Source: Methylocella sp.
Lineage (GTDB): Bacteria; Pseudomonadota; Alphaproteobacteria; Rhizobiales; Beijerinckiaceae
Length of the DNA stretch: 64,000 nucleotides
Assembly: GCA_037200525.1 (NCBI GenBank)
Contig: JBBCGG010000001.1
Location: forward strand, 1,592,501 to 1,656,500
Reading direction: 5' to 3'
Part shown: piece by piece, positions 5,119 to 37,822 of the stretch
How the letters are laid out: every line of letters begins with the position of its first letter
How positions within the stretch are numbered: position 1 is the first letter of the stretch
Made by a program: the position numbers and the translations under genes
The notes under the pieces: model-generated
Told to the model about the DNA's origin: nothing
Seen by the model: only the letters and a program-made list of their open reading frames with translations
Databases searched by the model: none

Positions 5119-6300
5119 CTAAAGTGTCCCACTTTTTTCTGTCTTCCGGACGATCAGATGCATCGCATCGCCAGCCACCTGCTTCTGGCGCGCCTTCTTC
5201 GTGTAATGGGCCGCCATATCAGGATCGCTCCAGCCGAAGATGGCCATCAACTGCTTTTCCGTCGCGCCGTTCTCTGCGGCGATACAGGCTCCGGCCTTGC
5301 GCAATCCGTGTGCCGAGCAATGCTTGAGGCCTGCCGCATTACACCATTTCCGCATGCGGTTGCCGAAACCGGCGGCCGAGAAAGGCTTGCCGTATTCGTT
5401 TACCAAGAATGTAAGGTTCCCGCTCGGCCCCTGCTTAATCGAGGCTTGAAGCTCGGGGAGGACGGGAAGGTCTAGAATGACAGGTTTCCTGTTGCGGTTC
5501 TTGTTCTGCGTGAAGTGAATCCAGAGCGTAGGGAGGCCCGTTTCCTGGTCGATCTCCTCCCGCACGTGCTGCCGACCGAAGGCAATGACGTCTGATTTCC
5601 TCTGGCCGGTGAACATGAGGAGGGCGAGCGCCAGGCGCGCCGTTGACCCGACGCGGTGAGTAGCTTCGAACCGCTCGACTTCCTCCAGTGTCCATGTATG
5701 GAAGCCCTGCGAGCCCGTTCTAAAGGCGGGTACGTCGCGCGCCGGGTTGGCCGGCATCGGATAGGCGCGCATAATATCTTCGTCGCCAAGCGCCCATTTG
5801 AAGACGCTTCGCAGCGCCTTGAGCCTGCTATTTGCGGCCTCCGGAGCATCAATCTTACGGTCTCGAAGGATCTTTACAAATTTAGGGCCAAACTCCTTGA
5901 TGGGGCAGTCGCCGAACATCAGTTCATCACCGGGCGCTATTTTCTCATCCCAGCAATTGTTCAGCACTCGCCGGCGAACTGTCCGAGTATCGATATCAAG
6001 GCGCCTGAATTCTGCGCACTGCTCGAAATAGGCCTCACATAGCCATCGAAGAGATCCGGTTTTCGCACGAACAATCGGCGCAGGGACGGCCTTCGGCTGA
6101 TATTGGATGCCTTTGAGCGCCAGGCCGTAGGCTTCCCAGAACTCCGGCGTGCCTTTCTCGGGGCGAATCCTAATCTTTTTCTGGCCCGGCGCCCGGACGT
6201 AGGTTCTAAGGTTTCCGAACCGATCAGTATCCTCAACGAGGTACTTAGGCTTAACCCAAGGCATTCCCGCCACCATGATCATAGCCTGGCCCGTCCCCAC
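5119..6300 (-). CDS. int: Phage tyrosine-family integrase
   Basis: A 393-residue site-specific recombinase that integrates and excises the prophage. The order is an N-terminal arm-binding region, a SAM-like core-binding domain (about residues 85-190) and a catalytic domain with Arg in FTGQRKSDV, His-x-x-Arg in SAHGLRKAG, Trp in FGWSDPDM and the nucleophile in AHYTKKA. All catalytic positions are present. Its start overlaps the 3' end of the excisionase-like gene by 22 bases; ATG at 6282 is an alternative. It is the last gene of the leftward operon and is followed by a terminator. Confidence 0.92.
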   Translation of the reverse strand: MGTGQAMIMVAGMPWVKPKYLVEDTDRFGNLRTYVRAPGQKKIRIRPEKGTPEFWEAYGLALKGIQYQPKAVPAPIVRAKTGSLRWLCEAYFEQCAEFRRLDIDTRTVRRRVLNNCWDEKIAPGDELMFGDCPIKEFGPKFVKILRDRKIDAPEAANSRLKALRSVFKWALGDEDIMRAYPMPANPARDVPAFRTGSQGFHTWTLEEVERFEATHRVGSTARLALALLMFTGQRKSDVIAFGRQHVREEIDQETGLPTLWIHFTQNKNRNRKPVILDLPVLPELQASIKQGPSGNLTFLVNEYGKPFSAAGFGNRMRKWCNAAGLKHCSAHGLRKAGACIAAENGATEKQLMAIFGWSDPDMAAHYTKKARQKQVAGDAMHLIVRKTEKSGTL

Positions 6301-9417: not shown

Positions 9418-9440
9418 GCAGGCGCGACGACGCGCGGAGC

Positions 9441-11592: not shown

Positions 11593-11933
11593 ATGTTCCC
11601 CGCGATCTGCTCCGTCATCTCTCTGCGGAGGCGCCCTGCAATCATCATGGCGTAATAGTCGGTCTCGCCGGATGAACAGAGCGAGAAAGCAAATGCCGTT
11701 TGGTCGCCTTCAATGGACCGCAGATTCCAGTCGTCGCTCATCTCTTGCAGCAACCATCCGGGCTTGCGCGCGGGGAACAGCACGTCCTTGATCCGGTCTT
11801 CCGGTCGCACTGGCGCCGGATAGGCCTGCGAAATGGAGTCGAAAATCACCCCATCATAGCGCAGCGCTAGCGAGCCCTTTTCGACGTAGGCGTGAATTTG
11901 ATCGAGGGATAGTTTGGCGAAGATCATCATCAT
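11589..11933 (-). CDS. Hypothetical phage early protein
   Basis: A 114-residue protein of unknown function. It starts at the ATG forming an ATGA overlap with the preceding gene. Alternating beta-type segments (LALRYDGVIFDSI, TAFAFSLCSSGETDYYAMMIAG) give no known domain. It belongs to the early operon. Confidence 0.6.
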   Translation of the reverse strand: MMMIFAKLSLDQIHAYVEKGSLALRYDGVIFDSISQAYPAPVRPEDRIKDVLFPARKPGWLLQEMSDDWNLRSIEGDQTAFAFSLCSSGETDYYAMMIAGRLRREMTEQIAGNM

Positions 11934-12370: not shown

Positions 12371-12759
12371 CTCGTTTCCTCTACATAAAGCGGCCTCGGC
12401 GGCAGTGAGGTGCGATCAAATCGACGCTCTTTCGGCTCGGCTCGGCGCGATGGGATCTTGGCGCGGGTCTCGTCTTTGATTCCGAGATGCGCATCCTTCT
12501 GGCGTTTGGCTTTGACGATCGCCGGCATGTCATGCATCGCGGTCTTGACCTCTGCACATTCGAAATGGGCCGGGCCGCGGTTCGATAGGTCATTCGTGCC
12601 GCCGAGACCCAGCGCGCGAACGTGCTCGTCGATCCAAACCTTTCGCGGGTCGATCGGTAATTTGCAGATTATGCAAATCCCGCCATGAGTTTCCCACATG
12701 GTCCGGCGCTGGGTTTTCGTCAGCGGCTTGCGCTTTGTGGTGGCGACATCCTGCATCAT
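12367..12759 (-). CDS. HNH endonuclease-like protein
   Basis: A 130-residue basic protein. A CxxC pair (GGICIICKLPI) is followed by WIDEHVRALGLGGTNDLSNRGPAHFECAEVKTAMHD, with the His/Asn pattern and spacing of a zinc-stabilised HNH nuclease. The C-terminus is Arg/Lys/Pro-rich. The start at 12759 is fixed by the ATGA overlap with the next upstream gene. It may assist phage recombination or packaging. Confidence 0.75.
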   Translation of the reverse strand: MMQDVATTKRKPLTKTQRRTMWETHGGICIICKLPIDPRKVWIDEHVRALGLGGTNDLSNRGPAHFECAEVKTAMHDMPAIVKAKRQKDAHLGIKDETRAKIPSRRAEPKERRFDRTSLPPRPLYVEETR

Positions 12760-13280
12760 GCCGCTCGCCCGGCGTTCTCTTCGAGCTCCTTGCGCGTCAC
12801 GCCGATCAAGGATTGCGCATAATCGAGCACCGCGTTTTTGGACTCGTTGAACGCTTTCTTGCCCATCGCGCGCTCGCTCTGGCTTTGGGCGGTCCAGATC
12901 GTCACGACGCACCGATCCACTAGGATCAGGGCGTATTCGTCATTGCTCGGGCGTACGAACATCTGCAGTTCGCGCGCCTCGGCGCCGGTCCGGGCGACAA
13001 ATTGGCGAGAATCTGCGTATCCGCATTTGATCAGGGCGTACTTGCGCAAATGCTCGGGTGTGGGAAATTGCTCAGCACGGTTCTCTGGCAAATTCCGCCA
13101 GACTTCCTTGAGGGAGGCGAAATAATGGCCGCGCGACGCCTGCGAGACATTCTCGACCACGGCGAGCTTATAGGTTTCGCCGATCACAAGTTCCTTATCG
13201 GCATCTAGCCGACCCCTCGCGCTGAATGGCGTTAGCGCGTCACCGTCCCAGCGCCAATTAATCGTTAAGAGTGCGCTCAT
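12756..13280 (-). CDS. Phage protein of the recombination block
   Basis: A 174-residue protein lying directly after the YqaJ nuclease with a 4-base overlap. It has a beta-rich N-terminus (LLTINWRWDGDALTPFSARG), then EQFPTPEHLRKYALIKCGYADSRQFVARTG and a helical C-terminus. I cannot assign a family. Its constant position with YqaJ and Erf suggests a recombination or DNA-binding accessory role. Confidence 0.6.
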   Translation of the reverse strand: MSALLTINWRWDGDALTPFSARGRLDADKELVIGETYKLAVVENVSQASRGHYFASLKEVWRNLPENRAEQFPTPEHLRKYALIKCGYADSRQFVARTGAEARELQMFVRPSNDEYALILVDRCVVTIWTAQSQSERAMGKKAFNESKNAVLDYAQSLIGVTRKELEENAGRAA

Positions 13281-13918
13281 GCCGCCGCCCTCTCCCCATA
13301 GAGATCGGTGAGTGCCAGAACCTTGTCATTGAGCTCGATCAGGAAAGCGGCGACTTCCGCCTCAAGGCTGGCGATCAGCCTCTCGTCGCGGGTAACGCGC
13401 GAGGTAAAAAGGCGCATGGCCTCTGGTAGGCGAGGATCGAAAGAGACGAAGTCGCACCAGGCGCGACCGGTGCAGGCCAATTGCCATTGGATCTGCGTGA
13501 CGTAGCGGCTGGGCACGTTTTGCCCCAATAGGGTCTCAATATGTGTCGAGGTATTAGGCGCTTTGATTTCGATGAGACCGTCGGCTCCGACCAGTCCATC
13601 GGGGCTGGCGCCGGAACATTCGATTCTCGGATGCAAAACAAAGCCGACTTCCGAAACCCATGTCTCGGTCGCCATTTCATAAGCGGCGCGCGCCTCTGGC
13701 TCTTTTTCCGTGCCCCATGCCATAGCCGCATTGGTGTATTTCTCTGCGGGTTCTCCGGTCAGGCGTTCGGCGATCAATTCGCCCATGTAATTGGCGCGGC
13801 TGGCGCCCCAACCGGATTTAGTCTTGGCGATGACATCGGCGACGCGGCTGGCGGTCACGCGCCCGCATCTTGCGGCGTGCCACTCCGCTGATCCCTGGGC
13901 GCACTCGATGACGTTCAT
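13277..13918 (-). CDS. YqaJ-type viral exonuclease
   Basis: A 213-residue lambda-exonuclease-like (YqaJ) nuclease. Motifs are GSAEWHAARCGRVTASRVADV at the start, WGTEKEPEARAAYE, the catalytic CSGASPDGLVG followed by LIEIKAPNT (the Asp...Glu-x-Lys centre), and YVTQIQWQLACTGRAWCDFVSFDP. It digests one strand at double-strand ends so that the annealing protein encoded just upstream (Erf) can act. Confidence 0.9.
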   Translation of the reverse strand: MNVIECAQGSAEWHAARCGRVTASRVADVIAKTKSGWGASRANYMGELIAERLTGEPAEKYTNAAMAWGTEKEPEARAAYEMATETWVSEVGFVLHPRIECSGASPDGLVGADGLIEIKAPNTSTHIETLLGQNVPSRYVTQIQWQLACTGRAWCDFVSFDPRLPEAMRLFTSRVTRDERLIASLEAEVAAFLIELNDKVLALTDLYGERAAA

Positions 13919-14748
13919 CGGCTCAACTCCTTGCCACGTCGGGAATAAGCTCCGAAAAGCTGCTGATAGCCGGGACGGGGCCCCTGGAGCGTGTTGACTA
14001 GGTCAAGCGCAATGCGTTGCTCTTTCTGCTCGGACCACCAATCGCTCAGCTCTTTGGCTGTCTGGGAGGCAGCGATCTTTTCGGCGGCAAGATCGAGATA
14101 GGCGCGCACGGAGTCTGGCAACTCGGGTTCAGCGTGGCCACCGGCGCGCCCGTCATCGTCCTCGCTGCGGGTGCTGCTCAGATTCAAAAGCGCCATGGCG
14201 ACGTAGCGCTTGCCGTAGCTGGTGGATGACCCCACGGCTTGAACCGCGTTCTTGCTGCCGGTGCTATCGTGCGGCAGCGTCATCGTGGTCTCTTCCTGAT
14301 GGCCTCCCGCGTGACTCAAAATGCCGGTGACGGTGATCTTGCCGTCGCTGGCGAGGCCCGTGCGGAAAGAAATGGCAAACCCGTGCTTGCCGAGAACCGG
14401 GCGGATTGCCTGATTGATGTCGTCCCAGCGCGCATAAGGCGTTTCTTGCTGGATCTCGCCAGGCTTATCCTTTTTGTGGATCGTGATTTTGCCACGCTCC
14501 TGGATAACCGGGAGGTCAGGCTGCATGGCCGAGAGAGCGGCGGAATAGGCGGTTTTCGCCCGCGCGGACTCGACGCGCTCATACATCGACATAAGCCGTT
14601 CCATCTTATCGACGTTGACGGCGGGATCGCGCGCGGCCTTGCTGATTACGGCGAGAAGGGAATCTCCATCCGACACGGGCGCGGAAACCACGGCGCCGCG
14701 CCGATCGTCGATCGCGGCGATTTGCCGTCCGGCTGATTGCTCGTTCAT
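13915..14748 (-). CDS. erf: ERF-family single-strand annealing protein
   Basis: A 277-residue phage recombinase. The Erf core spans about residues 25-190: ERVESARAKTAYSAALSAMQ, then VIQERGKITI, YARWDDINQAIRPVLGKHGFAISFRTG, and TGSKNAVQAVGSSTSYGKRYVAMALLNL. The family anneals complementary strands and circularises phage DNA. The ATG at 14748 has ATGA coupling to the gene upstream. It pairs with YqaJ as an exonuclease/annealase module. Confidence 0.9.
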   Translation of the reverse strand: MNEQSAGRQIAAIDDRRGAVVSAPVSDGDSLLAVISKAARDPAVNVDKMERLMSMYERVESARAKTAYSAALSAMQPDLPVIQERGKITIHKKDKPGEIQQETPYARWDDINQAIRPVLGKHGFAISFRTGLASDGKITVTGILSHAGGHQEETTMTLPHDSTGSKNAVQAVGSSTSYGKRYVAMALLNLSSTRSEDDDGRAGGHAEPELPDSVRAYLDLAAEKIAASQTAKELSDWWSEQKEQRIALDLVNTLQGPRPGYQQLFGAYSRRGKELSR

Positions 14749-14996
14749 GACATCACCTTCGACCAAAGAGACGCCGCGATGCAGACGATCGCGATGGCGC
14801 ACATCAGGCGCCTTACCCAACGCAACTGCGCCCGCACTTCGCGCGCGGCTGGGGATTCCACTTCTCGAACTTCGTCGAGCCCGGAACTAAAAAGCTCGAA
14901 CTCTTCGGGGGTGAAGCGGGCGCGCTCGTGGTGGCTAAGCTCGCGATTAAAATAATTCGGATCATGGTTGCCTCCGACGGCTGATAGGGCTTTCAT
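14745..14996 (-). CDS. Small membrane-anchored phage protein
   Basis: An 83-residue protein with a charged N-terminal region and one C-terminal membrane segment (LMCAIAIVCIAASLW). Unknown function. It is ATGA-linked to both neighbours in the early operon. Confidence 0.6.
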   Translation of the reverse strand: MKALSAVGGNHDPNYFNRELSHHERARFTPEEFELFSSGLDEVREVESPAAREVRAQLRWVRRLMCAIAIVCIAASLWSKVMS

Positions 14997-15301
14997 TCTG
15001 CCGCCTCGGCAACGGGTGGCTGCTCGGCGGTTGATTTCACGGATTCCCGCTTCTGATATTCGGCGTACCAGAGCGCTTGGCGCTTCTCTTCGATGGCGGC
15101 AGCGAGATGAATGATCGCTTCGCCGATTTCCTTGCCGGACTCGCTATCACTGAAGGCCCGCGCCAGATCTGATCCGGATCTATGGGTCAGTCGATCGATA
15201 GCGACGTTCTGATCGTGGACCTTTGCCTCTTCTGCGGTGCGGAACAGGCGCGTTTCATCGAGTTTGCTGGCATAGGCATATGTCGAGCTGTAGGAAATCA
15301 T
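14993..15301 (-). CDS. Hypothetical phage early protein
   Basis: A 102-residue soluble protein with helical segments (SESGKEIGEAIIHLAAAIEEKRQALWYAEYQKRE). No family recognised. ATG 15301 is followed downstream by a 4-base overlap with the next gene. Confidence 0.58.
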   Translation of the reverse strand: MISYSSTYAYASKLDETRLFRTAEEAKVHDQNVAIDRLTHRSGSDLARAFSDSESGKEIGEAIIHLAAAIEEKRQALWYAEYQKRESVKSTAEQPPVAEAAE

Positions 15302-15350: not shown

Positions 15351-15626
15351 TCAGAAATCGTAAGGGTCGTAATCGTCGTCGGGAGGAGGGTTCTCTTGGA
15401 TGTACGTCGACATCCGCTGTTCCTCGGCGTCGGTCAGCGTGATGTCCTGACTGGGCTCTGCGGTGGTCCACGCCTTGACAATCTCGACCTCGCCGCCCTC
15501 CGCCGGGCAGCAACTTTCCGGCGGCCCGTAGGTCTGCGCGGGGAGGTAGTCGCTGATCGAATACTCGACCGTGATTTCGGTCTCGCCATCGTCGCGCTCG
15601 AACGTTTGGAAGAATGTGCGGGTCAT
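15351..15626 (-). CDS. Small acidic phage protein
   Basis: A 91-residue protein beginning MTRTFFQTFERDDGETEITVEYSI, with a CC pair (PESCCPAEGGEVEI) and a very acidic tail (PPPDDDYDPYDF). The acidic, beta-rich start resembles small phage proteins that bind or mimic nucleic acids, but this is speculation. ATG 15626 overlaps the upstream stop by 4 bases. Confidence 0.58.
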   Translation of the reverse strand: MTRTFFQTFERDDGETEITVEYSISDYLPAQTYGPPESCCPAEGGEVEIVKAWTTAEPSQDITLTDAEEQRMSTYIQENPPPDDDYDPYDF

Positions 15627-15862
15627 GACAGCCACCCGATCAAGAGACACACGCCAGCGACGAGCAGCATCGAGATGAGAAACTCGTCGATGAAATAGAG
15701 GCTGGCCAGCATTTCCGGTGCGCGATCAAGATCGCGGTGCTGGCCGTGATCAGACCACTTCGCGGCATATTCGGCGTGGGAGAAATAGCCCGCGTCCGCG
15801 TTGGCAAGATCGAAGGCGCGCTCGCGCTTCAGATCCATGGGGGTTCGGCTGATCTGGGTCAC
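15623..15862 (-). CDS. Small phage protein with C-terminal membrane segment
   Basis: A 79-residue protein. GTG at 15862 was chosen because it forms a GTGA overlap with the upstream gene and has GGAGGG 7 bases before it. The mature chain has a soluble region and one C-terminal hydrophobic helix (FLISMLLVAGVCLLIGWL). Function unknown. Confidence 0.6.
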   Translation of the reverse strand: MTQISRTPMDLKRERAFDLANADAGYFSHAEYAAKWSDHGQHRDLDRAPEMLASLYFIDEFLISMLLVAGVCLLIGWLS

Positions 15863-16230
15863 GCCCGTTCCCTCCGAGACCAATTTTCGGGGGATTTGGA
15901 ATGCGCCAGCATCGCGTATGCGTGCTCGATCGGCGCGCGATCTAGGTTGAGGAGAAATCGTGCGCAGAGATCCCGCGCCTCCTGCGGTAGCTCGTCATAA
16001 TCGTAGGTCTTGGCGAGTTCCGCCGCGACATCTTCGGTCACATCCCGCGCCGTGCCGGCGGTGAGGTTGATCTCGTAGATCGCGAGCAGATCGGGATATT
16101 GCTCCTCGGCGATATCTTCGAGCATCGTTGCGCGGGCGAGGGGGAATTCAGTTTCAAACGCGCCGGCGGCGGGATGCCCCACACGGCCGTCAGTGAAAGT
16201 CACAATGTGGTGGATGAGATCGGCGCTCAT
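15859..16230 (-). CDS. Hypothetical phage early protein
   Basis: A 123-residue soluble acidic protein ([23 protein letters not shown]...). It has helical segments but no recognised domain. It is the second gene of the early operon, linked by 4-base overlaps on both sides. Confidence 0.6.
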
Positions 16231-16808
16231 GATTGCACCGCACTTTCCGCGACGACCGTAGAATTCAGGCCGACGAGGTCCATGAACTCAACGATCATGC
16301 CTTCGGTGATTTTGGCGATTTGGCTATTCTCCGGGGTGTCGCCCTTATTGATGCCAAGGAACCAGCGCTCGACAGGCCTCGAGCTATCGGCCAGTCCGAG
16401 AGTGTCGTAATAAACCTGCCGGACGTTCGCGATCGTGCCGACCAGGCAAGCGCATTCGCCTTCGTAGGTCGATCCGTTGACGCGACCCTCGCGCAGAGCG
16501 GTCAGGAGCGCCGGAACCTCGGGGATAGCGCGCAGAAGAATATCGTACAGATCCGCCCGCACGGAGCGCAGGTTCGCGCCGATCAGGCTCGCGCCGCGCA
16601 GGTTCACGCCGTCCAGGCTCGCGCCGTCCAGGTTCGCGCCGCGCAGGCTCGCGCCGTCCAGGTTCGCGCCGTCCAGGTTCGCGCGGTTAGAGACGCCCCA
16701 TTTTACCGCCAGCCCGACCTTAATTGAGATCAGCGCATCATCTGCGCATTCGATCTCGGCCGTGAACTGAACGTCTCCGCTCCACCTGTTTCTGATTTCG
16801 AATTGCAT
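16227..16808 (-). CDS. Pentapeptide-repeat phage protein
   Basis: A 193-residue protein, first gene of the early operon. Residues about 42-82 are tandem A(N/S)LxG pentapeptides ([20 protein letters not shown]), a right-handed quadrilateral beta-helix of roughly eight or nine repeats. The C-terminal half ([32 protein letters not shown]) is not repeat-like. Long pentapeptide proteins can mimic DNA and protect gyrase, but this helix is short. The matching DNA (16560-16690) is made of near-identical 15-nt units. GGAG precedes the ATG. Confidence 0.82.
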
Positions 16809-16840
16809 GTCGGCGCTCCATCGGGTTGATGGAGGTAATG

Positions 16841-17730: not shown

Positions 17731-17862
17731 AGACACCTCTTTGTGAACGCATCGCGGTGTACCGGAATCCAGGAATTGCGGCAGGCAAAAGCTATGCAAT
17801 TTCCTTGCTGCGCAGATGACCATGAAAAAGCCCGCGCGAGGCGGCCTGAAGGAGAAATGAAT

Positions 17863-18138
17863 ATGACGCAAAGCTCGTCGCGAGAACCGGCCGTTAGGAG
17901 GTTCGTGTCGTTTTCGGACATCAGCCCAGAAAGCTCGGACATGAGCCGAGGAGACTCAAAATCACAGGAGAGGTATTCTTCAGAAGAATATATTGCCTTG
18001 GAAGAAGCGTTTAACTGTTGGTGGGCAGATAATTCCAGTGCACTTCATTTAGGTGCGTGCGGCGATTTAGAATCTTTGAGAGATGCGCTTGTCGCCGCCT
18101 GGCCGAATTCTTCGATCGGCGATGGAGGCGCGCCATGA
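17863..18138 (+). CDS. Hypothetical phage protein
   Basis: A 91-residue protein with a Ser-rich N-terminus and an acidic helical C-terminus (SSEEYIALEEAFNCWWADNSSALHLG). ATG 17863 is 8 bases after GGAG; ATG 17857 is too close to it. Unknown function. Confidence 0.5.
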   Translation: MTQSSSREPAVRRFVSFSDISPESSDMSRGDSKSQERYSSEEYIALEEAFNCWWADNSSALHLGACGDLESLRDALVAAWPNSSIGDGGAP

Positions 18139-18159
18139 AAGCCCCGCCGTTCGACCGCG

Positions 18160-18968
18160 TTAAGTCTGACCAGAAGAACGTGATTTTGAGCGAGCTTCTC
18201 CCTCCTGGCTCCGGCGAATATTTTCAGCCTGCAGCGTCTTCTTCTCGGCCCGTGCCTTTTCTTGAGCGCGTTGTGCAGGTGTCGGTCGGGAAGATCTCGT
18301 TTTCGCTGCCTGAATATGCTGTACAAAAAGGTCTTTCTGACCTTCGCTTAGCCACGGGGGAATGTGTTTCTCTACTGGACTATGCTCAGGGGGTGGCTCT
18401 AGTTTTTGTGGCTTTGGCCAGAAGTGGCTTTTTAGACGACCTTGCTTCACAGCTATCTCATGATCCAGAAAATCAAGCCATTCCCGCGCGTAAGCGAAGT
18501 AAGTAAGTTGCTGTTTCAGCAGGCCAATGCTGACATGCCGAAAATGATGAAAAAACTCGGTGTCCGTGTCGAATTCTGATTTTTCAAGGTCGGCAAAAAA
18601 TAAGCCGCCTTTGTGATCTGGAGAATCCGCCCAATTGCAATGAGCGTAACGATTTCGAATGCGCGCGCATATCGCAACCATAGCGACGCAAATTTCAAGG
18701 TCTTTGGCGAGACAAGGTCTTTGGCGAGACCTAGTTCCTTGCATTCTTGCGCGATAATCGATTGCGCAAATTCTACGCGAGCGGACGAAGCTCTGGTTTT
18801 GTAAAGAGCGGTCAAAATCTCACCCAGCATATCCAGGGTTTTGCCTGCATTCCGGCAGACTGAGAATTCAATCTCGCCATACGCGAGGATAATTTTGCCA
18901 ATGAGTGTGGCGTGCCTTGGATGGCGCTCCAACGCCGGGTTTATTCGCGGGCCAGGTGAGTTTTTCAT
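18160..18968 (-). pseudogene. Helical protein gene frameshifted by a 17-bp tandem duplication
   Basis: The 5' part (MKNSPGPRINPALERHPRHA...ECKELGLAKDL) and the 3' part (EICVAMVAICARIRNRYAHCNWADS...RSKSRSSGQT) read in different frames. They are separated by a perfect tandem copy of caaggtctttggcgaga (18696-18712, 18713-18729). Removing one copy joins them exactly as GLAKDLEICVAMVA, giving about 263 residues with a basic C-terminal tail. The region IRNRYAHCNW occurs in a family of unknown function. Either the gene is dead or the repeat switches it. Confidence 0.78.
18696..18729. repeat. 17-bp perfect tandem duplication
   Basis: Two adjacent copies of a 17-mer inside the minus-strand gene at 18160-18968. 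Since 17 is not a multiple of 3, the duplication shifts the frame. Confidence 0.95.
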
Positions 18969-19172
18969 GGAGAATCGAATCGCGCGGCGGCTAGCAGCGG
19001 GCCGGCCAAAGTACTCGGACGAGAGTCGAGGGCGGCTTCTACCAACACGGCAGCTTCCCAACCACGAAGCCGCCCCCAGGAAACGATCCTCTTCCCGGTC
19101 CGCCTACGCAATTCCAAACTGAGCCGCGCAGTGACGAATACCGTCAGCCGTTGTAACGCGGCAACGGCCGCT

Positions 19173-19201
19173 ATGAAAAAGCCCGGCGCTAGGCCCGGGA
19201 T
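19173..19201 (-). terminator. Probable terminator of trpC
   Basis: On the minus strand a cccgg / ccggg hairpin with an 8-nt loop precedes a ctttttc tract, about 20 bases after the trpC stop codon. Confidence 0.6.
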
Positions 19202-19220
19202 AGAGGGAGGCATGTGGAGT

Positions 19221-20078
19221 TTAGCCGAAAAGAAGTGATCGAGTAGCAGCAGCCACGTCTTGTTGCCGCATCAGGCTCTCTCCGACCAGAAAGGTTCGAA
19301 CTCCGGCATTTGTTAGCCGCACTATGTCTGCATGGCTTCCTATGCCGCTCTCTCCCACGACTAAACGGTCGCCAGGAACCCGAGGCGCCAGTTCCTCTGT
19401 TGTGGCGAGTGACACTTCAAAGCTGCGAAGATCGCGGTTGTTGATCCCGATCAATTTCGTTTCCAGCGGGAGGGCGCGCTCGAGTTCATGCGCGTCATGG
19501 ACCTCGACGAGAACATCCATGCCCAGATCATGGGCATGGTTCACGAGTTCCCGAGCCTCGGCGTCGCTGACGCTCGCCATAATGACTAGGATGCAGTCGG
19601 CACCCCAAACGCGAGCCTGATGGACCTGATAAGGCTCGAACAAAAAGTCCTTGCGCAAGACAGGCAGCCCGGAAGCATCGCGCGCAAGCCGAAGGAAATC
19701 CGGATGGCCTTGAAAGGAGGGCTCATCGGTCAAAACTGAGATGCAGCTGGCGCCGCCTTCAAGATAGGCGCGGGCGAGGCTAGGGGGATCGAAATCCGGA
19801 CGGATCAGACCTTTCGAAGGACTGGCTTTTTTAATTTCCGCTATCAGTGCGGGGCGCCCTTCACGGAGATGCGCCTCAATCGCCGACGCGAAACCGCGTG
19901 GCGGCGATGCCTGTCGAGCGAGTTTCAGAATCGCCTCGGATGAAATCTCCGACTTAGCGGCAAGAACCTCGCGGCGTTTATAGGCTTCTATGCGGGCGAG
20001 AATATCGGGTTTCCGTCGATGCGTTTCACTTCCATCCTGCTGGGATAAACGCTCTTCCGCAGTGGGCTCTGTGTTCAA
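19221..20078 (-). CDS. trpC: Indole-3-glycerol phosphate synthase inside the prophage
   Basis: A 285-residue complete TIM-barrel enzyme that closes the indole ring in tryptophan synthesis. The motifs are in family order: [82 protein letters not shown] and [13 protein letters not shown]...TFLVGESLM. It starts at TTG 20078, 7 bases after GGAGG, with about 20 extra N-terminal residues. No other trp gene is near, and phage genes surround it, so it looks like a cargo gene or a captured host gene. It has its own promoter region and terminator. Confidence 0.93.
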
Positions 20079-20414
20079 TTTTAACCTCCAGTGGCATACA
20101 TTTGGAAATTATAGGCGGGGCACATTACGAACCAGTTTCAGCGCACTTATCAGCGCACTTAAACGAGTTTCATCTGAAATAAGTCTCTGCGAACACAACG
20201 GTTCTTATTCAACCTTCGTCGTTCCAAGGCTCAAGACCCTGTCACAATCTGCCGGGCCTTGCCGCCGCATCGCCTCGATCCTATCGCGCCGGCGCTGGCG
20301 ATTTGCGGCCGGTCCGCATTTCGGACCGTGTGCCCGCGCTTGGCCCACACAATACGGCCATTCCACGCTAGCGAATATTAGCTATTGAGCGTTTAATGTC
20401 ATTTAACTCTGCCT
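20079..20414. other. trpC upstream region
   Basis: No convincing gene. It contains the GGAGG ribosome site of trpC. I see no Trp-codon leader peptide or attenuator-type alternative hairpins. Confidence 0.5.
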
Positions 20415-20639
20415 TTAAGATTTCCAAATTTGAGGAGATGCGGCTCTCTTGGAGATCGACGTCATCGTATTTATCATCGTGTTGGCATTATTTTTTACAA
20501 TCAAATTAATAAAAATTAGAATAACAACCCCATCAAATACTGTGAGATTTCGACCTAAGATATTTTTTATGAAATCATATATCCAAGAAGAAATAGAATA
20601 TAAAAACAAGAATGTAGAAATAATGAAATTGTCGGCCAT
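20415..20639 (-). CDS. Small AT-rich membrane protein
   Basis: A 74-residue protein with two hydrophobic segments (FIISTFLFLYSISSWIYDFI and VVILIFINLIV). Its DNA is much more AT-rich than its surroundings, suggesting recent acquisition. It follows the coiled-coil gene at 20655-20855 in the same direction. Confidence 0.5.
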   Translation of the reverse strand: MADNFIISTFLFLYSISSWIYDFIKNILGRNLTVFDGVVILIFINLIVKNNANTMINTMTSISKRAASPQIWKS

Positions 20640-20654
20640 GATAAACTTTCGTCG

Positions 20655-20855
20655 TCAGACTTCAGCCAAATCCAGCCGCGTCTCAATTCGTTCGAGGCGC
20701 CCTTCGATCCGGTCGATTCTGCGCGAAACCGAAGCATAATTCGCCTCAAGCGTTCCAAGCCGCTCTTTCACTTCGCGCATGTCTTCGCGAAGGCCGTCCA
20801 CGGCTCCTCGGATGTGGCGAAGGTGCTCAAGCACCAGATTTTCGGATTCGGCCAT
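20655..20855 (-). CDS. Small coiled-coil protein
   Basis: A 66-residue protein made almost wholly of heptad repeats (LRHIRGAVDGLREDMREVKERLGTLEANYASVSRRIDRIEGRLERIETRLDL). This type is widespread in proteobacterial genomes and often precedes membrane proteins. The ATG at 20855 starts the standard family N-terminus MAESENLVLEHL. Confidence 0.7.
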   Translation of the reverse strand: MAESENLVLEHLRHIRGAVDGLREDMREVKERLGTLEANYASVSRRIDRIEGRLERIETRLDLAEV

Positions 20856-21085
20856 TCGCGTCGTTCCTGAACTCCGTAATGCTCGACAAAAATTAATCCC
20901 CATGGTCGCGTATATACTAAAGAGTGATAAAGCAATCGAGATGCAACCTTATCATTTATTTTGCTATAATAACATTTTCAGGTTCTTATGTCACTGCGTA
21001 GATCGACTAATAATATCTTCGGAATAAATCATTTATCAAAACATGTAGAGTTTGAGCGTTATTTCCGCGAGGCGTGTTTAAATGT
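20856..21085. other. AT-rich intergenic segment
   Basis: The region downstream of the repressor gene has low GC content and no supported gene. It lies between the repressor stop and the coiled-coil gene start. Confidence 0.5.
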
Positions 21086-21610
21086 CTATCTTTGATCTTG
21101 TTCTTTCTCGAGTTCTATCAAGGTTTTTTGAACTAACAGGTCAACTCGAGCTTTGTCAGATGCCTCTAGGTCGAGACCAGCAATCTGAATTGGCCACTCT
21201 AGCCGTTCTGCTACAAACCTTGTTTCTAAAAGTTTTTCCATCTCAGGAGTCATCGGACGTCCCTGACGCTCTAAGCTGCGCGAGAACTCTTTCCAAAGGC
21301 TTACTAGACGTTGCGTTAATGCCGTCTCGGGCAACGCACTAGGGCTCATCAATAATATATTTGAACGTTCCCGTCTGGATTCTGGCGGGCTGGCTTCGCC
21401 ACTGAAAAACGGGGTCCAATCGACACCGGTTGCCCTTTTGATTTTATTCCGCGTCTCCTCTTTCAAGACGAAATAGAAATTTTTCTTGTTGAGCAACCTC
21501 GTGAGAGTTGTGGAACTCACGTGGCTCTCCGCAGCGACGCGGCTAGGGGCCCACTTTTTGACGTCGCAGACATGCCTGACGTAAGCCTTGCTGGCTTCAT
21601 ATAAATCCAT
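21086..21610 (-). CDS. Prophage repressor (HTH, CI-like)
   Basis: A 174-residue protein. The N-terminal helix-turn-helix covers about residues 17-45 (WAPSRVAAESHVSSTTLTRLLNKKNF). The C-terminal part is helical and without the Ser/Lys dyad of LexA-type peptidase domains, so SOS-induced self-cleavage is not evident. ATG 21610 leaves the intergenic space to three operator sites (21622-21699). The same palindrome precedes the early operon, so it likely silences both promoters. Confidence 0.75.
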   Translation of the reverse strand: MDLYEASKAYVRHVCDVKKWAPSRVAAESHVSSTTLTRLLNKKNFYFVLKEETRNKIKRATGVDWTPFFSGEASPPESRRERSNILLMSPSALPETALTQRLVSLWKEFSRSLERQGRPMTPEMEKLLETRFVAERLEWPIQIAGLDLEASDKARVDLLVQKTLIELEKEQDQR

Positions 21611-21621
21611 GACACCAATAA

Positions 21622-21633
21622 AGCATAAATGCA
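21622..21633. promoter_or_regulatory. Operator D
   Basis: AGCATAAATGCA, one of three sites between the repressor and Cro-like genes. With flanks (21621-21635) it is the exact reverse complement of 21647-21661. Confidence 0.72.
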
Positions 21634-21648
21634 CCATGCATATCTCGG

Positions 21649-21660
21649 TGCATTTATGCT
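21649..21660. promoter_or_regulatory. Operator E
   Basis: TGCATTTATGCT, a mirror copy of operator D, 27 bases away (centre to centre). Confidence 0.72.
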
Positions 21661-21679
21661 TGACGACTGTCGCGATTAG

Positions 21680-21925
21680 ATGCATTATGCATTTATACAC
21701 TTTCTTGATGAAGTCACAGAGATTGAACGGAAGCTGAAGGAAGCAAACGTGCCTCTTTCGGTCCTCCTTGGCGCGGCGGGCATTGACCGCTCAACTTGGA
21801 CGCGGTGGCGCGCCAAGACAACCATTCCTCGCCTAGACCGGTGGGAAGGGACTAAGGCCGCGGCTGCCAGAATTTTCTTGACGCATGAGAGTTCCATTCC
21901 TGCAGAAAGTGAGTGCAGAGAATGA
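21680..21925 (+). CDS. Cro-like HTH protein
   Basis: An 81-residue protein divergent from the repressor. The HTH is at about residues 25-50 (VPLSVLLGAAGIDRSTWTRWRAKTTIPRLDRW). The ATG at 21680 lies within an operator (21688-21699 reads TGCATTTATACA) and has no ribosome site, so a leaderless message or a later start is possible. It is the first gene of a rightward string joined by ATGA overlaps. Confidence 0.68.
   Translation: MHYAFIHFLDEVTEIERKLKEANVPLSVLLGAAGIDRSTWTRWRAKTTIPRLDRWEGTKAAAARIFLTHESSIPAESECRE
21688..21699. promoter_or_regulatory. Operator F
   Basis: TGCATTTATACA overlaps the first codons of the Cro-like gene, so binding would block its promoter or start. Confidence 0.6.
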
Positions 21926-22410
21926 GCCAGACGACCCACGCGCTCGATCGATGCCATTTGGCTCTAAAAGTCGGAGCGTTGGCGACAAGGCTGGTCAAAG
22001 CTGCCGACAAAATCAGCGCCCGTTGTGACGATGGGCTGTGTGAATCAGTTCTCGTTTTGCATGCCGACGAACTCTGCGAAGATGTAGAGGGAGCGAAGAT
22101 TGCCGGCGCGCCCGTGCGGAGCAATAAACCTGGCGAACTCCTCAGGCTCGATTTTGACCTCCACGACAAGGAACTCCTGCCGGTATTCAAACAGGCGTGC
22201 CGCATGGCGCTTGAGCCATTCGTCGAAGGAGTTGGGCAAATCAGCGTGGATGACGCGCCGGAGGGCGTCGTAATCCCAGGCTCGATGGTCGGAAAATACA
22301 ATCTGTCCAATCCGCTTCCTCCGCTCTTTCGTCGACCGAAGTTACCGGGGTTCCCGTCAGCGGAGAAGCCGCATGATCAGGGTGTTCCATCTCCGCGAGC
22401 CGATCACTGA
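21922..22410 (+). CDS. Hypothetical phage protein
   Basis: A 162-residue protein starting MSQTTHALDRCHLALKVGALATRLVKAADKIS, with its ATG overlapping the upstream stop by 4 bases. It has Cys residues near C41/C48 and a Pro-rich C-terminus. No recognised family. The minus-strand frame over the same DNA lacks this coupling. Confidence 0.58.
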   Translation: MSQTTHALDRCHLALKVGALATRLVKAADKISARCDDGLCESVLVLHADELCEDVEGAKIAGAPVRSNKPGELLRLDFDLHDKELLPVFKQACRMALEPFVEGVGQISVDDAPEGVVIPGSMVGKYNLSNPLPPLFRRPKLPGFPSAEKPHDQGVPSPRADH

Positions 22411-22573
22411 AATTCGAGACGACGCCGTCAGGATTCCGCTGGACGCGCTTCGATTATTCGGGCGCCGCGCCAACATCCTGCTCAATTGCTTTTTCGTTGC
22501 TGTCATCATCGCGGCGATTTCTGCGCGTGCGGCTTACCGCTGGTCTAAGCGGGCAAAGGGGTTCCGGGCATGA
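22373..22573 (+). CDS. Small membrane protein in the right early string
   Basis: A 66-residue protein with one membrane segment (ANILLNCFFVAVIIAAISARAAY) and a basic C-terminus. It overlaps the preceding gene by 38 bases and the next by 4. Confidence 0.55.
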   Translation: MIRVFHLREPITEIRDDAVRIPLDALRLFGRRANILLNCFFVAVIIAAISARAAYRWSKRAKGFRA

Positions 22574-25500: not shown

Positions 25501-28500
25501 ATGGGAAGCAAACCTTCGAGCCAATCAAACACGTCGCAGAGCTTTTCGCCGCCGCCTAATGTTATGCAAAATTACGATCAGGTCGTGTCGCAGGCGCAGC
25601 AGGACGCCGCCACGCCCTATCAGCCGTTCACTGGGCAACTTGTCGCGCCGGTTAATCAGCAGCAAACGACCGGCATTAACGCGATCAACGCAGCGTCGGG
25701 CGTTCAAGACGCCGATAACGCGCAGGCCACAGGCCTCGCCGGCGCCAGCGCTGCAGCGATCAATCCGACGCAATATTCAGGCGCGGCGCTTGCGCAATTC
25801 GAATCGCCCTATCAGAGCGATGTCGTCAACACGACGCTCGGCGAAATCAATAACCAGAATCAGCAACAGGCTGCGTCGCTCGAGGGCAATTCCATCTCAG
25901 CCGGCGCGTTCGGAGGCGATCGGGCGGGCGTCGCACAGGCGGCGCTGGCCGGTCAGCAGGATATCGCGACGAATGCGACTGTCGCCAGCCTGAATAATCA
26001 GAATTTCCAAAACGCTCAGTCCGAATTTAATAATCAGCAAACGACGGATTTGGGCGCTCAGCAGAATACGGCGGCGCGTCAGCTCGCGGCGAGCCAGCAA
26101 CTCGGCACGCTCGGCCAAACGGAGCAGACGGAAGACCTCAACGAAGCCAACGCGCAAACGAACGCGGGCACGCTGCAACAGCAGACGACGCAGGCTCAGG
26201 ACACCGCAAATTACAACCAATATTTGCAGCAGCTCGCCTATCCCTTCCAGACGACGGGCTGGCTGGCCAATATCGTCGAGGGCATCGGTTCGCAATCCGG
26301 AGGCACGACGACCGGCCAGACGCAACAGCAGAGCGGAAATACCGGGTCGACCATCGCGGGCGGCCTGCTTGGCCTTGGATCGTTCCTGGCGAGCGGCGGC
26401 CGCGTCACCTATGCGAACGGCGGCGGTCTCGGCGGCGGCGTGCTTCAGCCCGCATTCGATCCAACGCAGGGCGTTCCGGCTGGGCTCGGCGGCGGCTCCT
26501 GGGTTCCAACACCGTCGCTGCCGATCGGCCATACCATGCCGCAGGGATCGTCGGGCGCCGCGCCGGGACAGACGCCCGCGCAGCAGGGGCAGAACATGGC
26601 GGGAATCGCCAAGGGCATCCAGGGCCTCGGCAACGCCTTTTCGAATACGAGCGCCGGCGATGCAGTCAGCGACGCGGTGCAGGACAGCCTTGACGATCTC
26701 AACCGCGGCGGCCGCGTGCCGCGCGGGACTGGTCTGGCGGCTGCGGCCTATCGCGACGGCGGAACCGTTCTCGGCGATGGCGGCGTGATGCGTCGGCCTC
26801 ATTATGACGATGGCGGCGGCGTCACCGGCCTTGTCTTCGATCCGGATGCGCTGAACACTCAGGTCCCAGACACCACGCCTTTGGCCGCGGCCGCGGCGAC
26901 GAATCCAGCCACGGCTCTTGGCTTCACGCCCGCCGCTAACGGCGTGTTGCCGCCTGCCGATGTCAGCCAGACGGCCTCCGCGCCTGGACTAGGCGCCGCC
27001 GCAGCGCCGCAACCAAGTCCAGCGCCTGCACTCGCCGCTATCGATCAGGCGACCGCACCGAGGGGAATCCGCAATAATAATCCTGGCAACCTCATCGATA
27101 ATGCCTGGACGCAGAGCCTCCCCGGTTACACTGGCTCGGACGGCCGATTTGCGACATTCAACACGCCGCAGGCCGGATCCGCAGCGCTTGACCAAAATCT
27201 CCAGAGCTATGCGAGCAAGGGCGTATCGACGCCTCTGGCGATCGCGAGCAAATGGGCCCCAGCCGGTGACGGCGACAATAATCCAACGGCCTATGCTGGG
27301 TTTGTCGCAAGCAAGCTGGGTGTCGGGATCAACGATCCGATCGACATGACCAATCCTGCGGTCCGCTCGACGGTGGCCAGCGCCATTACTCAATTCGAAA
27401 ATGGAACAGGCGCCAGCATTCCGGCGTCCGCAAGCTCCTATGCCGATAGCCCGGCTGGCGGCGGCCTTGGTGCGGCTGGCGTCGCCGGCGCTCCGGTCGG
27501 GGCGAGCGCTTCGCCTCCATCTGGCGCGGCTGACGAGATCGCCCCTTCGCCGATCGACAAGGCTATCGGGGCTACCGGCGCGCATCATAAGGGCCTCGCT
27601 GGTCTCGATCTATCGGACAGCACCCGGCTCGGATTGCTTGCGGCCGGCCTCGGGATCATGGGAGGCAAGTCGCTCAATCCGTGGCAGAACATCGGGCAGG
27701 GCGGCCTTGAAGGGCTGCAAACGATGGTCGAAAGTAGCAAGAACCAGGCGAGCACCGGCCTCGCTCGAGCGCAGACGAAGGGGGTTGAGACCGAGAACGC
27801 CATTAAGCAGGGCCAATTGGATCTCATGATGTCGACGCTCAAGAAATTTTCTGGGCTTGGAGCGCCTAGTGGCAGCCAAGCCCCTGCCGCGACTTCTGCA
27901 GCAGCGTCATCGCGCCCGTCGAGCCCTACGGCGCCTGCATCAGCAATCGCGCCCTCGGCTCCATCCGCAGGATCCGCGGCCCCGGCAAATCCCCAGGTTC
28001 AACTCGATCCGAACTTCGACCCGCGCGTGTTGCGTGAGAAAGCATTTGCGCTTGCGGCGTCCCTGTTGCTCGCGAACACAGCGAAACAATATAGCGACGC
28101 TGCCAATCAAATTGAGACGCAGGGCTACTCCTATGATGTGAATGGCAATCGCGTTCCCCTTCCTGGGTTCAATCAAGTCAAAGCTGGGGCGGCCGCGGCG
28201 GTGGCGCGAGCGGAGGGCGAGGTCAAGAACGAACTAGCGCCCGCTATGTCCCCGAGCGGCGTGGCCTATCTCGGGGGTCAGAATCCGGGCGGCGGTGCAG
28301 CGGCCTTACAAGGTCCAACCATCGGAGGAACGCCTCCAGCGATGGAGATCGATCCGAAGACGGCCGCTGTGACGACTTCCATTCCCGCTGCGCCGAAGGG
28401 CGGCGGCTATCCCGTCCCGGACGTCCCGGCTGGAGCCAAAGTGACCGGAATTGGGGAAGGGGCGAAGGAACTCGCCAAGGCGGACGGCCAATTCAGCGAC

Positions 28501-29202
28501 ATGGTTGGCAAGGCGCCGGTTTTGGATCAGGGAATTGCGCGATTTCAAAGTTTGGCGCAGGCCTTCAAACTTTTCCAATCCGGATCGACCACTGAGAAAT
28601 TGCAGGCCGGCGCTGCGATTGCCCAATCATACGGCTATCCCGATCTCGCTAAGCGCATCCTTGGGGGTGATCCGGCAGCGGTTCAATGGGTCGGAAAAGA
28701 AGGCATTCAACTGACGTTGGATACGCTGAAAGCCGCGAACCCCCGTTTCGCTCAATCCGAATTTCAGGCGCTGGCAAATAAAGGCACGCCGAATGCCGAA
28801 CTGCTGCCGCAGGCCAACCATGAATTGATCGCCGAAGGCCTCGGCCTCATGGAGCGCAATCGGGCGTTCGTTCAGGACTGGCAAAAGGCGCAGACCCAAG
28901 GTTGGCAGAGCCCGTCAGCTTTCTATGGACAGTGGAGCAATGCGAATCCGCTGGGCGGCTTTATACGGGCCGCGCAGCGACAAATCGGCAATTTCAAAGG
29001 GATGGACCTGCCGCCATCAAGCGAATGGACGCAAGGCGTGACCTATGTCGCTCCTTCTACGATGAATCCTCAACAGGCCGATGCGTTTGCCAAACGCGGA
29101 ATAAAGCCAGGGCAGATGTTCAAATTCAATGGGCGTGACAGTTCGTCTCCGATCCAACCTATCGCGCCGGGCGCATCCTTTTCCGCCCAATTGGGACAAT
29201 AA
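25501..29202 (+). CDS. Giant phage virion protein with muralytic domain
   Basis: A 1233-residue protein. Residues 1-270 are Gln/Asn/Ala-rich and repetitive (QQQ and NNQ runs); 295-320 and 400-440 hold Gly-rich patches (SGGRVTYANGGGLGGG); around 521-640 is the RNNNPGN box (524-530) and LPGYTGSDGRFATF...ALDQNLQSYASKGVSTPLAIASKWAPAGDGDNNPTAYAGFVASKLGV, the RNNNPGNL-type domain seen in virion peptidoglycan hydrolases. A Pro/Ala/Ser linker and helical C-terminus follow. By analogy with T7 gp16 or P22-type ejection proteins it may open the wall during DNA entry. Confidence 0.78.
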   Translation: MGSKPSSQSNTSQSFSPPPNVMQNYDQVVSQAQQDAATPYQPFTGQLVAPVNQQQTTGINAINAASGVQDADNAQATGLAGASAAAINPTQYSGAALAQFESPYQSDVVNTTLGEINNQNQQQAASLEGNSISAGAFGGDRAGVAQAALAGQQDIATNATVASLNNQNFQNAQSEFNNQQTTDLGAQQNTAARQLAASQQLGTLGQTEQTEDLNEANAQTNAGTLQQQTTQAQDTANYNQYLQQLAYPFQTTGWLANIVEGIGSQSGGTTTGQTQQQSGNTGSTIAGGLLGLGSFLASGGRVTYANGGGLGGGVLQPAFDPTQGVPAGLGGGSWVPTPSLPIGHTMPQGSSGAAPGQTPAQQGQNMAGIAKGIQGLGNAFSNTSAGDAVSDAVQDSLDDLNRGGRVPRGTGLAAAAYRDGGTVLGDGGVMRRPHYDDGGGVTGLVFDPDALNTQVPDTTPLAAAAATNPATALGFTPAANGVLPPADVSQTASAPGLGAAAAPQPSPAPALAAIDQATAPRGIRNNNPGNLIDNAWTQSLPGYTGSDGRFATFNTPQAGSAALDQNLQSYASKGVSTPLAIASKWAPAGDGDNNPTAYAGFVASKLGVGINDPIDMTNPAVRSTVASAITQFENGTGASIPASASSYADSPAGGGLGAAGVAGAPVGASASPPSGAADEIAPSPIDKAIGATGAHHKGLAGLDLSDSTRLGLLAAGLGIMGGKSLNPWQNIGQGGLEGLQTMVESSKNQASTGLARAQTKGVETENAIKQGQLDLMMSTLKKFSGLGAPSGSQAPAATSAAASSRPSSPTAPASAIAPSAPSAGSAAPANPQVQLDPNFDPRVLREKAFALAASLLLANTAKQYSDAANQIETQGYSYDVNGNRVPLPGFNQVKAGAAAAVARAEGEVKNELAPAMSPSGVAYLGGQNPGGGAAALQGPTIGGTPPAMEIDPKTAAVTTSIPAAPKGGGYPVPDVPAGAKVTGIGEGAKELAKADGQFSDMVGKAPVLDQGIARFQSLAQAFKLFQSGSTTEKLQAGAAIAQSYGYPDLAKRILGGDPAAVQWVGKEGIQLTLDTLKAANPRFAQSEFQALANKGTPNAELLPQANHELIAEGLGLMERNRAFVQDWQKAQTQGWQSPSAFYGQWSNANPLGGFIRAAQRQIGNFKGMDLPPSSEWTQGVTYVAPSTMNPQQADAFAKRGIKPGQMFKFNGRDSSSPIQPIAPGASFSAQLGQ

Positions 29203-33938: not shown

Positions 33939-34712
33939 ATGAACGATGAAATCGAAATGAACTCTGGGCGCCAGCCCGTTGTTGCGATCAAAAACGGCGA
34001 CGTTCTTGCCAACAGCCGGGACGTCGCGTCCTATTTTGCAAAGAACCATCGCGACGTGCTGAGGGATATAGACAACCTGATCGCGTCTGAACCCACCCTG
34101 GGTCTGCGCAATTTTGCGCATACCCCATATATTGAGGCTCAGAACGGTCAAACCTACAGATCCTACGATATGGATCGAAAAGGGTTTGCGGTCATCGCCA
34201 TGGGCTTCACGGGTGCAAAGGCGCTTAAATGGAAGCTGGCATATATAGACGCGTTCGACGCGATGGAGGCGGAGCTTCGCGCCCGGCCGGCGATCGATCC
34301 AATCCAAGTCTTGAACGATCCGACTGCGATGCGCGGCCTCTTGCTGACCTACAGTGAAAAGGTTCTGGCCTTGGAAGCCGATAAGGCCGCAGCGGCGCCG
34401 AAGATTGCCGCGCTTGAGCGCATCGCAGAAGCGGACGGCTCGCTGTGCATCACAGACTCGGCAAAGACCCTACAAGTGCGCCCGACCGAGCTATTCAAAT
34501 TTTTACGTCACCACAGCTGGATTTACCGGCGCCCCGGAACGGATCACGACGTCGCCTATCAATCCAAGCTCGTGGTCGGATTGCTCGAGCACAAGACGAC
34601 GACCGTTCACCGATCGGACGGCTCCGAAAAGATCACAACGCAAGTGCGGATCACGCCAAAAGGATTGACGAGATTGGCTCAAGAACTTCCGCCCGCCTTG
34701 CGAGTCGCTTAA
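33939..34712 (+). CDS. Phage Rha/KilAC-type antirepressor
   Basis: A 257-residue regulator. The N-terminal Rha domain (residues 13-110) reads PVVAIKNGDVLANSRDVASYFAKNHRDVLRDIDNL...YDMDRKGFAVIAMGFTGAKALKWKLAYIDAFDAME. The C-terminal KilAC/ANT domain (about 150-257) has AEADGSLCITDSAKTLQVRPTELFKFLRHHSWIYRRPGTDH and VRITPKGLTRLAQEL. Proteins of this family counter phage repressors or interfere with host replication when expressed. Confidence 0.9.
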   Translation: MNDEIEMNSGRQPVVAIKNGDVLANSRDVASYFAKNHRDVLRDIDNLIASEPTLGLRNFAHTPYIEAQNGQTYRSYDMDRKGFAVIAMGFTGAKALKWKLAYIDAFDAMEAELRARPAIDPIQVLNDPTAMRGLLLTYSEKVLALEADKAAAAPKIAALERIAEADGSLCITDSAKTLQVRPTELFKFLRHHSWIYRRPGTDHDVAYQSKLVVGLLEHKTTTVHRSDGSEKITTQVRITPKGLTRLAQELPPALRVA

Positions 34713-37387: not shown

Positions 37388-37822
37388 ATGGACATTTCCG
37401 AAAAGGGCTTGCAGGCCTTGATCGCCCGCGAGGGATCGCGGCTCCAGGCCTATCGCGACAGCCGCGGGATTTGGACCATCGGCGTCGGCCATACGGGCCG
37501 CGCGAGTCCGCCATCGGTTCATGCCGGGATGACCATCACTCCCGACGAGGAAATGCGAATCCTCCATACCGATCTCGCGCCGGAAATCGCCGCAGTCAAT
37601 CGGGCGATCCGCGTTAGCATCAGCCAAGATCAGTTCGACGCTTGCGTTTCGCTTGCCTTCAACATCGGCGCGCATGGCTTCGTCGGATCGACCGTCGTCC
37701 ACATGATCAATGCCGGCAATTTAGAGGCCGCGGCGAATGCCTTCCTGATGTGGGATCACCCATCAGAGTTGAAGGGTCGCCGCGAAGCCGAGCGAGAGCA
37801 ATTTTTGGGAGTCGCCGCATGA
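37388..37822 (+). CDS. Phage endolysin (GH24 lysozyme)
   Basis: A 144-residue T4-lysozyme-type muramidase. The catalytic region LQALIAREGSRLQAYRDSRGIWTIGVGHTGRA has Glu in REGSRLxAYRD and the following Thr in GxGHT; DQFDACVSLAFNIGAHGFVGST is the substrate-binding part. No signal peptide, so it needs a holin; candidates are nearby (38945, 39436). It cleaves the bond between MurNAc and GlcNAc. Confidence 0.93.
   Translation: MDISEKGLQALIAREGSRLQAYRDSRGIWTIGVGHTGRASPPSVHAGMTITPDEEMRILHTDLAPEIAAVNRAIRVSISQDQFDACVSLAFNIGAHGFVGSTVVHMINAGNLEAAANAFLMWDHPSELKGRREAEREQFLGVAA

Follow-up and report, generated by a model that had tools for sequence, protein, structure and literature searches.

The stretch of DNA analysed here (64,000 nucleotides; 'the window' hereafter) holds a trpC gene for indole-3-glycerol phosphate synthase (IGPS) among the genes of a prophage, and we consider it probable that the gene is functional and that a temperate phage carries it as cargo (a 'moron'), giving an extra IGPS. 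This reading draws on an intact gene with its conserved residues, an origin foreign to the host genus, a position in a variable block linked to the immunity region and a phage hairpin behind the gene. As a kind, a metabolic or moron gene carried by a prophage is already known; as a gene, trpC is unusual in that place. A tryptophan gene in a phage record can easily be host DNA, and the examples viewed here are of that kind, so a trpC that lies among phage genes, is foreign and intact and is absent from near-identical siblings makes a clean test case for the question of whether individual steps of amino-acid synthesis are among the functions that temperate phages acquire. The locus also offers a repressor-linked block in which the genes differ among otherwise near-identical prophages of one chromosome.

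An intact trpC among phage genes

The gene and the phage genes around it are, in window coordinates:
5119..6300 (- strand), phage integrase, left part of the prophage
13277-13918 (- strand), YqaJ exonuclease
13915-14820 (- strand), Erf annealing protein
19221..20078 (- strand), trpC, IGPS, 285 aa, TTG start
20085..20089 (- strand), ribosome-binding site GGAGG, 6 nt from the TTG of trpC, read from the sequence
25501..29202 (+ strand), ejection-protein-like/virion-associated protein
33939..34712 (+ strand), phage antirepressor (Rha/KilAC)
37388..37822 (+ strand), endolysin

The first-pass annotation had described an intact IGPS gene with a GGAGG-TTG start, and both points are borne out. The 285 codons run without an internal stop, the complement of GGAGG stands at 20085-20089, Pfam family PF00218 aligns over profile positions 1-254 of 254 and the NCBIfam equivalog NF001370 scores 424.4 bits (curated cut-off 348). 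Residues 24-285 align with residues 7-268 of the chain of a solved IGPS of the alphaproteobacterial type (PDB code 3tsm; E = 1.6e-106), with the motifs kept. The prophage protein differs from PDB entry 3tsm in an N-terminal extension of ~22 residues: TrpC homology begins at residue 23-24 and the first 22 residues are the extension. An extension of a similar kind can be read 5' of some Methylobacterium trpC genes, although homology between the two is not clear.

That the gene is a lone trpC carried by a prophage had also been proposed, and the surroundings agree. Phage genes lie on both sides of it (the integrase, YqaJ, Erf, ejection-protein-like, antirepressor and endolysin genes listed above, together with HNH genes), which identifies the setting as a prophage. 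Whereas bacterial genes of the alphaproteobacterial type stand in the order trpD-trpC-moaC, neither trpD nor moaC is found among the ORFs neighbouring this copy, and no biosynthetic gene was recognised next to it in the ORF list or with Pfam. None of the listed short upstream ORFs has the adjacent Trp codons of a trp leader peptide, so attenuation is not suggested. Rfam at gathering thresholds matched only a tRNA. A search for att sites (2-9 kb versus 20-64 kb) gave a single 14-base exact repeat, in GC-rich sequence; with no att repeat found, and no terminase or portal recognised in the set of scanned proteins, the prophage may be defective and perhaps no longer mobile.

The chromosome has four copies of the Erf gene, and the three outside the window mark sibling prophages:
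about 3.535-3.554 Mb (inverted), sibling A
about 2.086-2.10 Mb, sibling B
about 1.064-1.078 Mb, sibling C

Sibling A matches window positions 7259-15005 with 99.87% identity (7.7 kb) and again 15623-16834 (in two pieces), 17821-18462 and 18949-19198 (90.4% identity). The first-pass annotation had suggested looking for trpC at the same site in related prophages; all three siblings lack it and have other sequence in the equivalent block. Two further genes were noted. A DUF5131 gene lies in the early region of the prophage, at 10672-11592, and a gene at 18160-19061, seemingly split between two reading frames, has an RNxxxH motif, which we take to be HEPN-like; Pfam matched neither piece.

Three trpC copies and their origin

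The genome is a single contig of 5,244,354 bases with three trpC genes. A second trpC in a trp operon had been put forward as something to check, and this canonical gene (copy 3) is present at contig positions 2,621,473-2,622,258 in an intact trpG-trpD-trpC-moaC-moeA operon, its TrpG- and TrpD-like upstream and MoaC- and MoeA-like downstream neighbours being named by eye from their sequences. Copy 2, at 1,796,099-1,796,881 (positions 8079-8882 of locus L033; 267 aa), is another lone gene, with an MFS transporter on one side, a methyltransferase on the other and a tyrosine integrase close by. The MFS gene has a relative in 3/14 genus genomes (E up to 1e-100), so the neighbourhood of copy 2 is also variable. 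A tRNA-His-like 3' fragment alongside the tyrosine integrase was recognised by eye, and ARAGORN found no tRNA in this locus. The prophage TrpC is 64% identical to copy 3 and 68% identical to copy 2. The trp genes looked for, namely trpG, trpD, trpC, trpF and trpB, are all present in the host, with a single TrpF.

Across 397 family genomes, including this one (E threshold 1e-30, with scoring limited to six candidates in any one genome), three TrpC matches occur only here among the matches listed, and the sole other genome with an ordinary second TrpC among them is that of Microvirga terrae, in which it is borne on a plasmid. A second trpC of the ordinary type is absent from all 14 other genus genomes; eight of the 14 give a second TrpC match that is very divergent (32-37% identity). 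In two genus relatives (L256, 6077-6922; L257, 5772-6599) such IGPS-like paralogs have the AEIKK motif altered to ADIQG and AELKG, respectively; this genome has no divergent paralog at E up to 1e-3.

To place the copies, 140 TrpC loci were collected (the two large searches behind the set contributed their best 30 and best 80 loci), of which 91 entered a quick tree and 50 a careful tree, the latter without two long-branched rows and many close relatives. Copy 3 and the genus TrpCs form one clade (support 100/99). The prophage copy and copy 2 group outside it with Microvirga, Alsobacter and similar genera: in the quick tree both fall in a 46-row set (support 98*) and a nested 38-row set (support 90), and in the careful tree neither is in any starred set up to half the rows. 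We place the prophage TrpC, as judged from these trees, among the TrpCs of the Microvirga/Alsobacter side, without a fixed nearest neighbour. Its closest sequences are Microvirga-side TrpCs with 75-77% identity, with no closer relative in 397 order-level genomes. Forcing it into the genus clade costs 74 log-likelihood units (AU p = 0.0039), and forcing copy 2 there costs 66 units (AU p = 0.0025); pairing the two, as for one acquisition, is neither supported nor rejected (AU p = 0.36). The first-pass annotation had allowed for this being the only trpC of the genome and orthologous to the chromosomal copy of relatives; it is one of three, and is a xenolog, foreign to the host genus and horizontally acquired. 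Its GC3 is 0.57 (copy 2, 0.69; copy 3, 0.68), compared with 0.79-0.96 for four trpC genes on the Microvirga/Alsobacter side of the tree, which is unlike what a recent direct arrival from a GC-rich donor would give.

Capture of a host gene by recombination, which the first-pass annotation had also raised, finds no support if the source is this host's own gene (AU p = 0.0039). A local duplication of the host's trpC that was carried into the prophage would account for the same protein family in the same genome, but the two proteins are only 64% identical, the clade with the genus copies is rejected by the same test under the model used and the nearest rows are the Microvirga-side TrpCs, so that we regard this origin as scarcely credible.

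The protein has changed a good deal, mostly away from the conserved positions. Comparison with 137 other TrpCs gave 259 well-filled aligned columns, 109 of them conserved at 95% or above. The prophage TrpC departs from the majority residue at 62/259 columns and at 3/109 conserved columns (I38V, L113I and E154Q), where ~26 would be expected if departures were evenly spread (P = 1.4e-13, against what is a weak null). When each of the 137 was left out in turn, the median was one conserved-column departure and 26/137 had three or more; the prophage copy is thus within the ordinary range and looks like a working TrpC. The columns that are invariant across nine aligned sequences include Glu81, Lys83, Lys143, Glu192, Asn213/Asn214, Glu243 and Ser244 of the prophage TrpC, onto which we take the catalytic positions of the Sulfolobus IGPS to map. 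It stands on a long branch (0.47 changes per column by the quick tree, 0.31 by the careful one), and a long branch with so few conserved-column changes shows that selection acted for most of its length, perhaps partly in the donor before phage entry. Copies 2 and 3 each have 0/109 conserved-column departures, and by this comparison the prophage copy (three departures and the long branch) is the least constrained of the three.

These results bear on the main rival to a reading in which the gene adds IGPS capacity, namely that trpC is a passenger, brought in by chance with an exchange of the immunity block or by illegitimate recombination, with no selected role in the phage and merely undecayed. 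In favour of a passenger, the host has two other TrpCs, and its prophages are mosaics that include IS copies. The pattern of change along the branch is rather that of a gene mostly under selection, though possibly in the donor, and we hold passenger status to be possible but somewhat unlikely.

A variable block behind the repressor

The block containing trpC has the following features:
19199..22466, immunity/cargo block, with other sequence in its place in siblings A, B and C; only the comparison with A gives a firm left edge
19182..19199 (- strand), stem of a terminator-like hairpin immediately behind trpC, in phage backbone sequence that sibling A also has
20265..20347, ~70-bp repeat upstream of trpC
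20415..20639 (- strand), 74-aa ORF, perhaps not a real gene, that separates trpC from the coiled-coil gene
20655..20903 (- strand), 82-aa coiled-coil protein, weak phage-family matches
21086..21610 (- strand), CI-like repressor, without a family match and named from its position, its operators and an HTH-like sequence (by eye)
21621..21696, operator-like palindromes between the divergent regulators; 15-nt arms 100% complementary, plus related copies
21680..21925 (+ strand), small divergent gene, called Cro-like from its position and without a family match

The match to sibling A ends at 19198, inside the hairpin and 22 bases short of the trpC stop codon, and matches to all three siblings resume at 22467 (67% identity to A and C, 86% to B). 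The hairpin had been read as the gene's own terminator; since it lies in sequence common to sibling A, which lacks trpC, it belongs to the phage. The left edges in B and C are given by terminator-like matches of 26-31 bp and are less certain than that in A. These boundaries also speak to the idea that trpC is not a prophage gene at all and lies in a piece of chromosome with a phage remnant on either side. The element is mosaic and no att repeat was found, as would suit such a patch, but phage genes stand on both sides, sibling A sequence stops only 22 bases short of the trpC stop codon and returns (at 67% identity) from 22467, and a CI/Cro-like switch with operators lies directly upstream; we therefore think a chromosome patch very improbable.

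Within the block the leftward order is CI-like repressor, coiled-coil gene, trpC, with trpC as the last gene of a stretch headed by the repressor. A scan gave four terminator-like sites, a number not above that in shuffles (3.3 +/- 1.9), none of which is on the - strand between the repressor and trpC. In lambda, rexAB follows cI. Like moron genes of the rexAB type, trpC is co-directional with the repressor in front of it and precedes a terminator-like hairpin; it differs from them in that the cargo is a biosynthetic enzyme, the expression of which is only predicted. In a lysogen, trpC would be transcribed leftwards from the repressor transcript, as rexAB is behind cI, or else from a weak promoter-like site (20402-20374), which matches the consensus but lies in DNA rich in A and T.

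The siblings have other genes in this position, next to repressor-like ORFs that we named by eye. In sibling A the repressor-like ORF is a different one and is accompanied by an 86-aa and a 100-aa coiled-coil ORF; in sibling B it is different again, and the genes with it are a 220-aa ORF and a Gp49-like/HTH pair that looks like a toxin-antitoxin system; sibling C has yet another repressor-like ORF and a DUF3800 protein. Anti-phage models gave no match to the prophage TrpC, the DUF3800 ORF or the 220-aa ORF; in sibling B some of them matched the HTH protein (best 9e-9) and the Gp49-like protein (best 4.2e-9), in both cases weakly. Searches with the repressor of the trpC-bearing prophage found no relative in viral contigs, one partial weak match in phage records and matches in 5/298 family genomes (its own and four weak ones).

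The ~70-bp repeat is also found beyond the cargo in siblings B and C, and was not found in sibling A. It contains a small hairpin and adjoins phage or IS sequence. Its 15-base core has six exact copies in this genome (the others are at contig positions 1074896, 1308099, 2098262, 2150743 and 3031319), none in the 11 other genus genomes searched and one copy in 1/8 genomes of other families of the order. The repeat was considered as a genome-wide REP element, which we dropped as the core occurs only six times and at phage or IS loci. Other repeated sequence was noted as well. An apparently non-coding stretch at window positions 40497-40660 recurs near prophage genes at contig positions 2098451-2098599, 1075085-1075233 and 2150962-2151110; the 3 kb at window positions 37378-40377, which includes the endolysin gene, recurs at contig positions 2144409-2147408 (99.5% identity). 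Contig positions 1303472-1310697 and 3026690-3034251 are stretches of ~7 kb each that are 99.9% identical over 5.7 kb; both have copies of the IS from window positions 8517-9786 on their flanks, an arrangement resembling a composite transposon.

A more speculative reading, which we consider improbable, is that this prophage family uses the sequence behind the repressor as a dedicated slot for the exchange of genes that benefit the host, bounded by the terminator and, in several loci, by the 70-bp repeat. Such a slot would swap toxin-antitoxin-like, DUF3800 and amino-acid-biosynthesis cargo, and TrpC, in the role of the defence-like genes of the siblings, might give the lysogen or a superinfected cell resistance to tryptophan limitation (for example, starvation by competitors or a defence response).

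Comparison with other trpC genes and possible function

A tblastn search with TrpC of 50,697 phage records gave 10 with a match, all below 60% identity. In all eight of the 10 whose neighbours were viewed, other trp genes stand beside TrpC: three Acinetobacter phage records have trpD annotated directly upstream, and five unannotated records have ORFs resembling other trp genes (by eye), which in a 1.5-kb Salmonella phage record amount to a TrpD-like end. Two further Listeria records make up the 10. When 2.9 million viral contigs were scanned by alignment with two peptide patterns as the limit of the scan, six TrpC loci emerged, all with a TrpD-like ORF directly upstream and five of the six with a TrpG-like one too. 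With trp genes adjoining TrpC in this way, the viewed phage records and viral contigs look like host trp operon DNA. The TrpCs of phage records and IMG/VR contigs (e.g. that of Acinetobacter phage Ab105-3phi) are likewise listed under a phage, but have trp genes directly beside them wherever viewed, whereas the prophage trpC is alone among phage genes. Window-specific TrpC peptides found no relative in the viral contigs, nor did the 1000-aa virion-like protein of the prophage there or among phages. Two PHROG families of unknown function match the prophage TrpC strongly (phrog_21787, 5e-88; phrog_28358, 5e-50), from which TrpC-like proteins exist in some virus-labelled genomes, and this counts against uniqueness. 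Within reach of these phage-record and viral-contig searches, no lone trpC inside a prophage was found elsewhere. Bradyrhizobium phage ppBeUSDA76-2 has a similar early order from integrase to YqaJ-Erf (Erf 57% identical over 62% of the query); it has no trpC annotated in the 22.9 kb viewed and is absent from the 10 phage records with TrpC.

Searches of open-licence PMC literature met no report of trpC inside a prophage in the portions of text returned. In those portions, PMC10683058 mentions trpC once, among functions that it lists for keystone microbes and not for viruses, and PMC6008428 has a line for tryptophan synthase in a virome table.

An auxiliary metabolic gene that boosts tryptophan synthesis, as the first-pass annotation had suggested, is a plausible function and the leading one. 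The prophage TrpC would turn CdRP from the host's single TrpF into indole-3-glycerol phosphate, which would then feed the host tryptophan synthase; the result would be added IGPS capacity uncoupled from the host trpGDC-moaC transcript. We propose that this extra capacity favours the lysogen and therefore the prophage too. The benefit is not obvious, as the host already has trpG, trpD, trpC, trpF, trpB and another extra trpC.

The enzyme might instead be repurposed, with its indole-3-glycerol phosphate or indole going to a product other than tryptophan (an indole derivative or a signal), as in secondary-metabolite clusters. A TrpC match occurs in 83 plasmid records, and the only one opened, Microvirga terrae plasmid pR24_1 (NZ_CP102846), is again an accessory replicon with a trpC additional to that of the trp operon; its product is 73% identical to the prophage copy. 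Unlike the prophage copy, this lone trpC lies in sequence without annotated phage genes (14.8 kb viewed), and it adjoins a type III polyketide synthase and a methyltransferase; copy 2 is likewise beside a methyltransferase, as well as an MFS transporter. Against this stands the lack of any recognised biosynthetic gene beside the prophage trpC, and we judge repurposing to be improbable. A precedent for such a use is that trpC is among the precursor-supply genes of some scytonemin clusters (PMC6939163).
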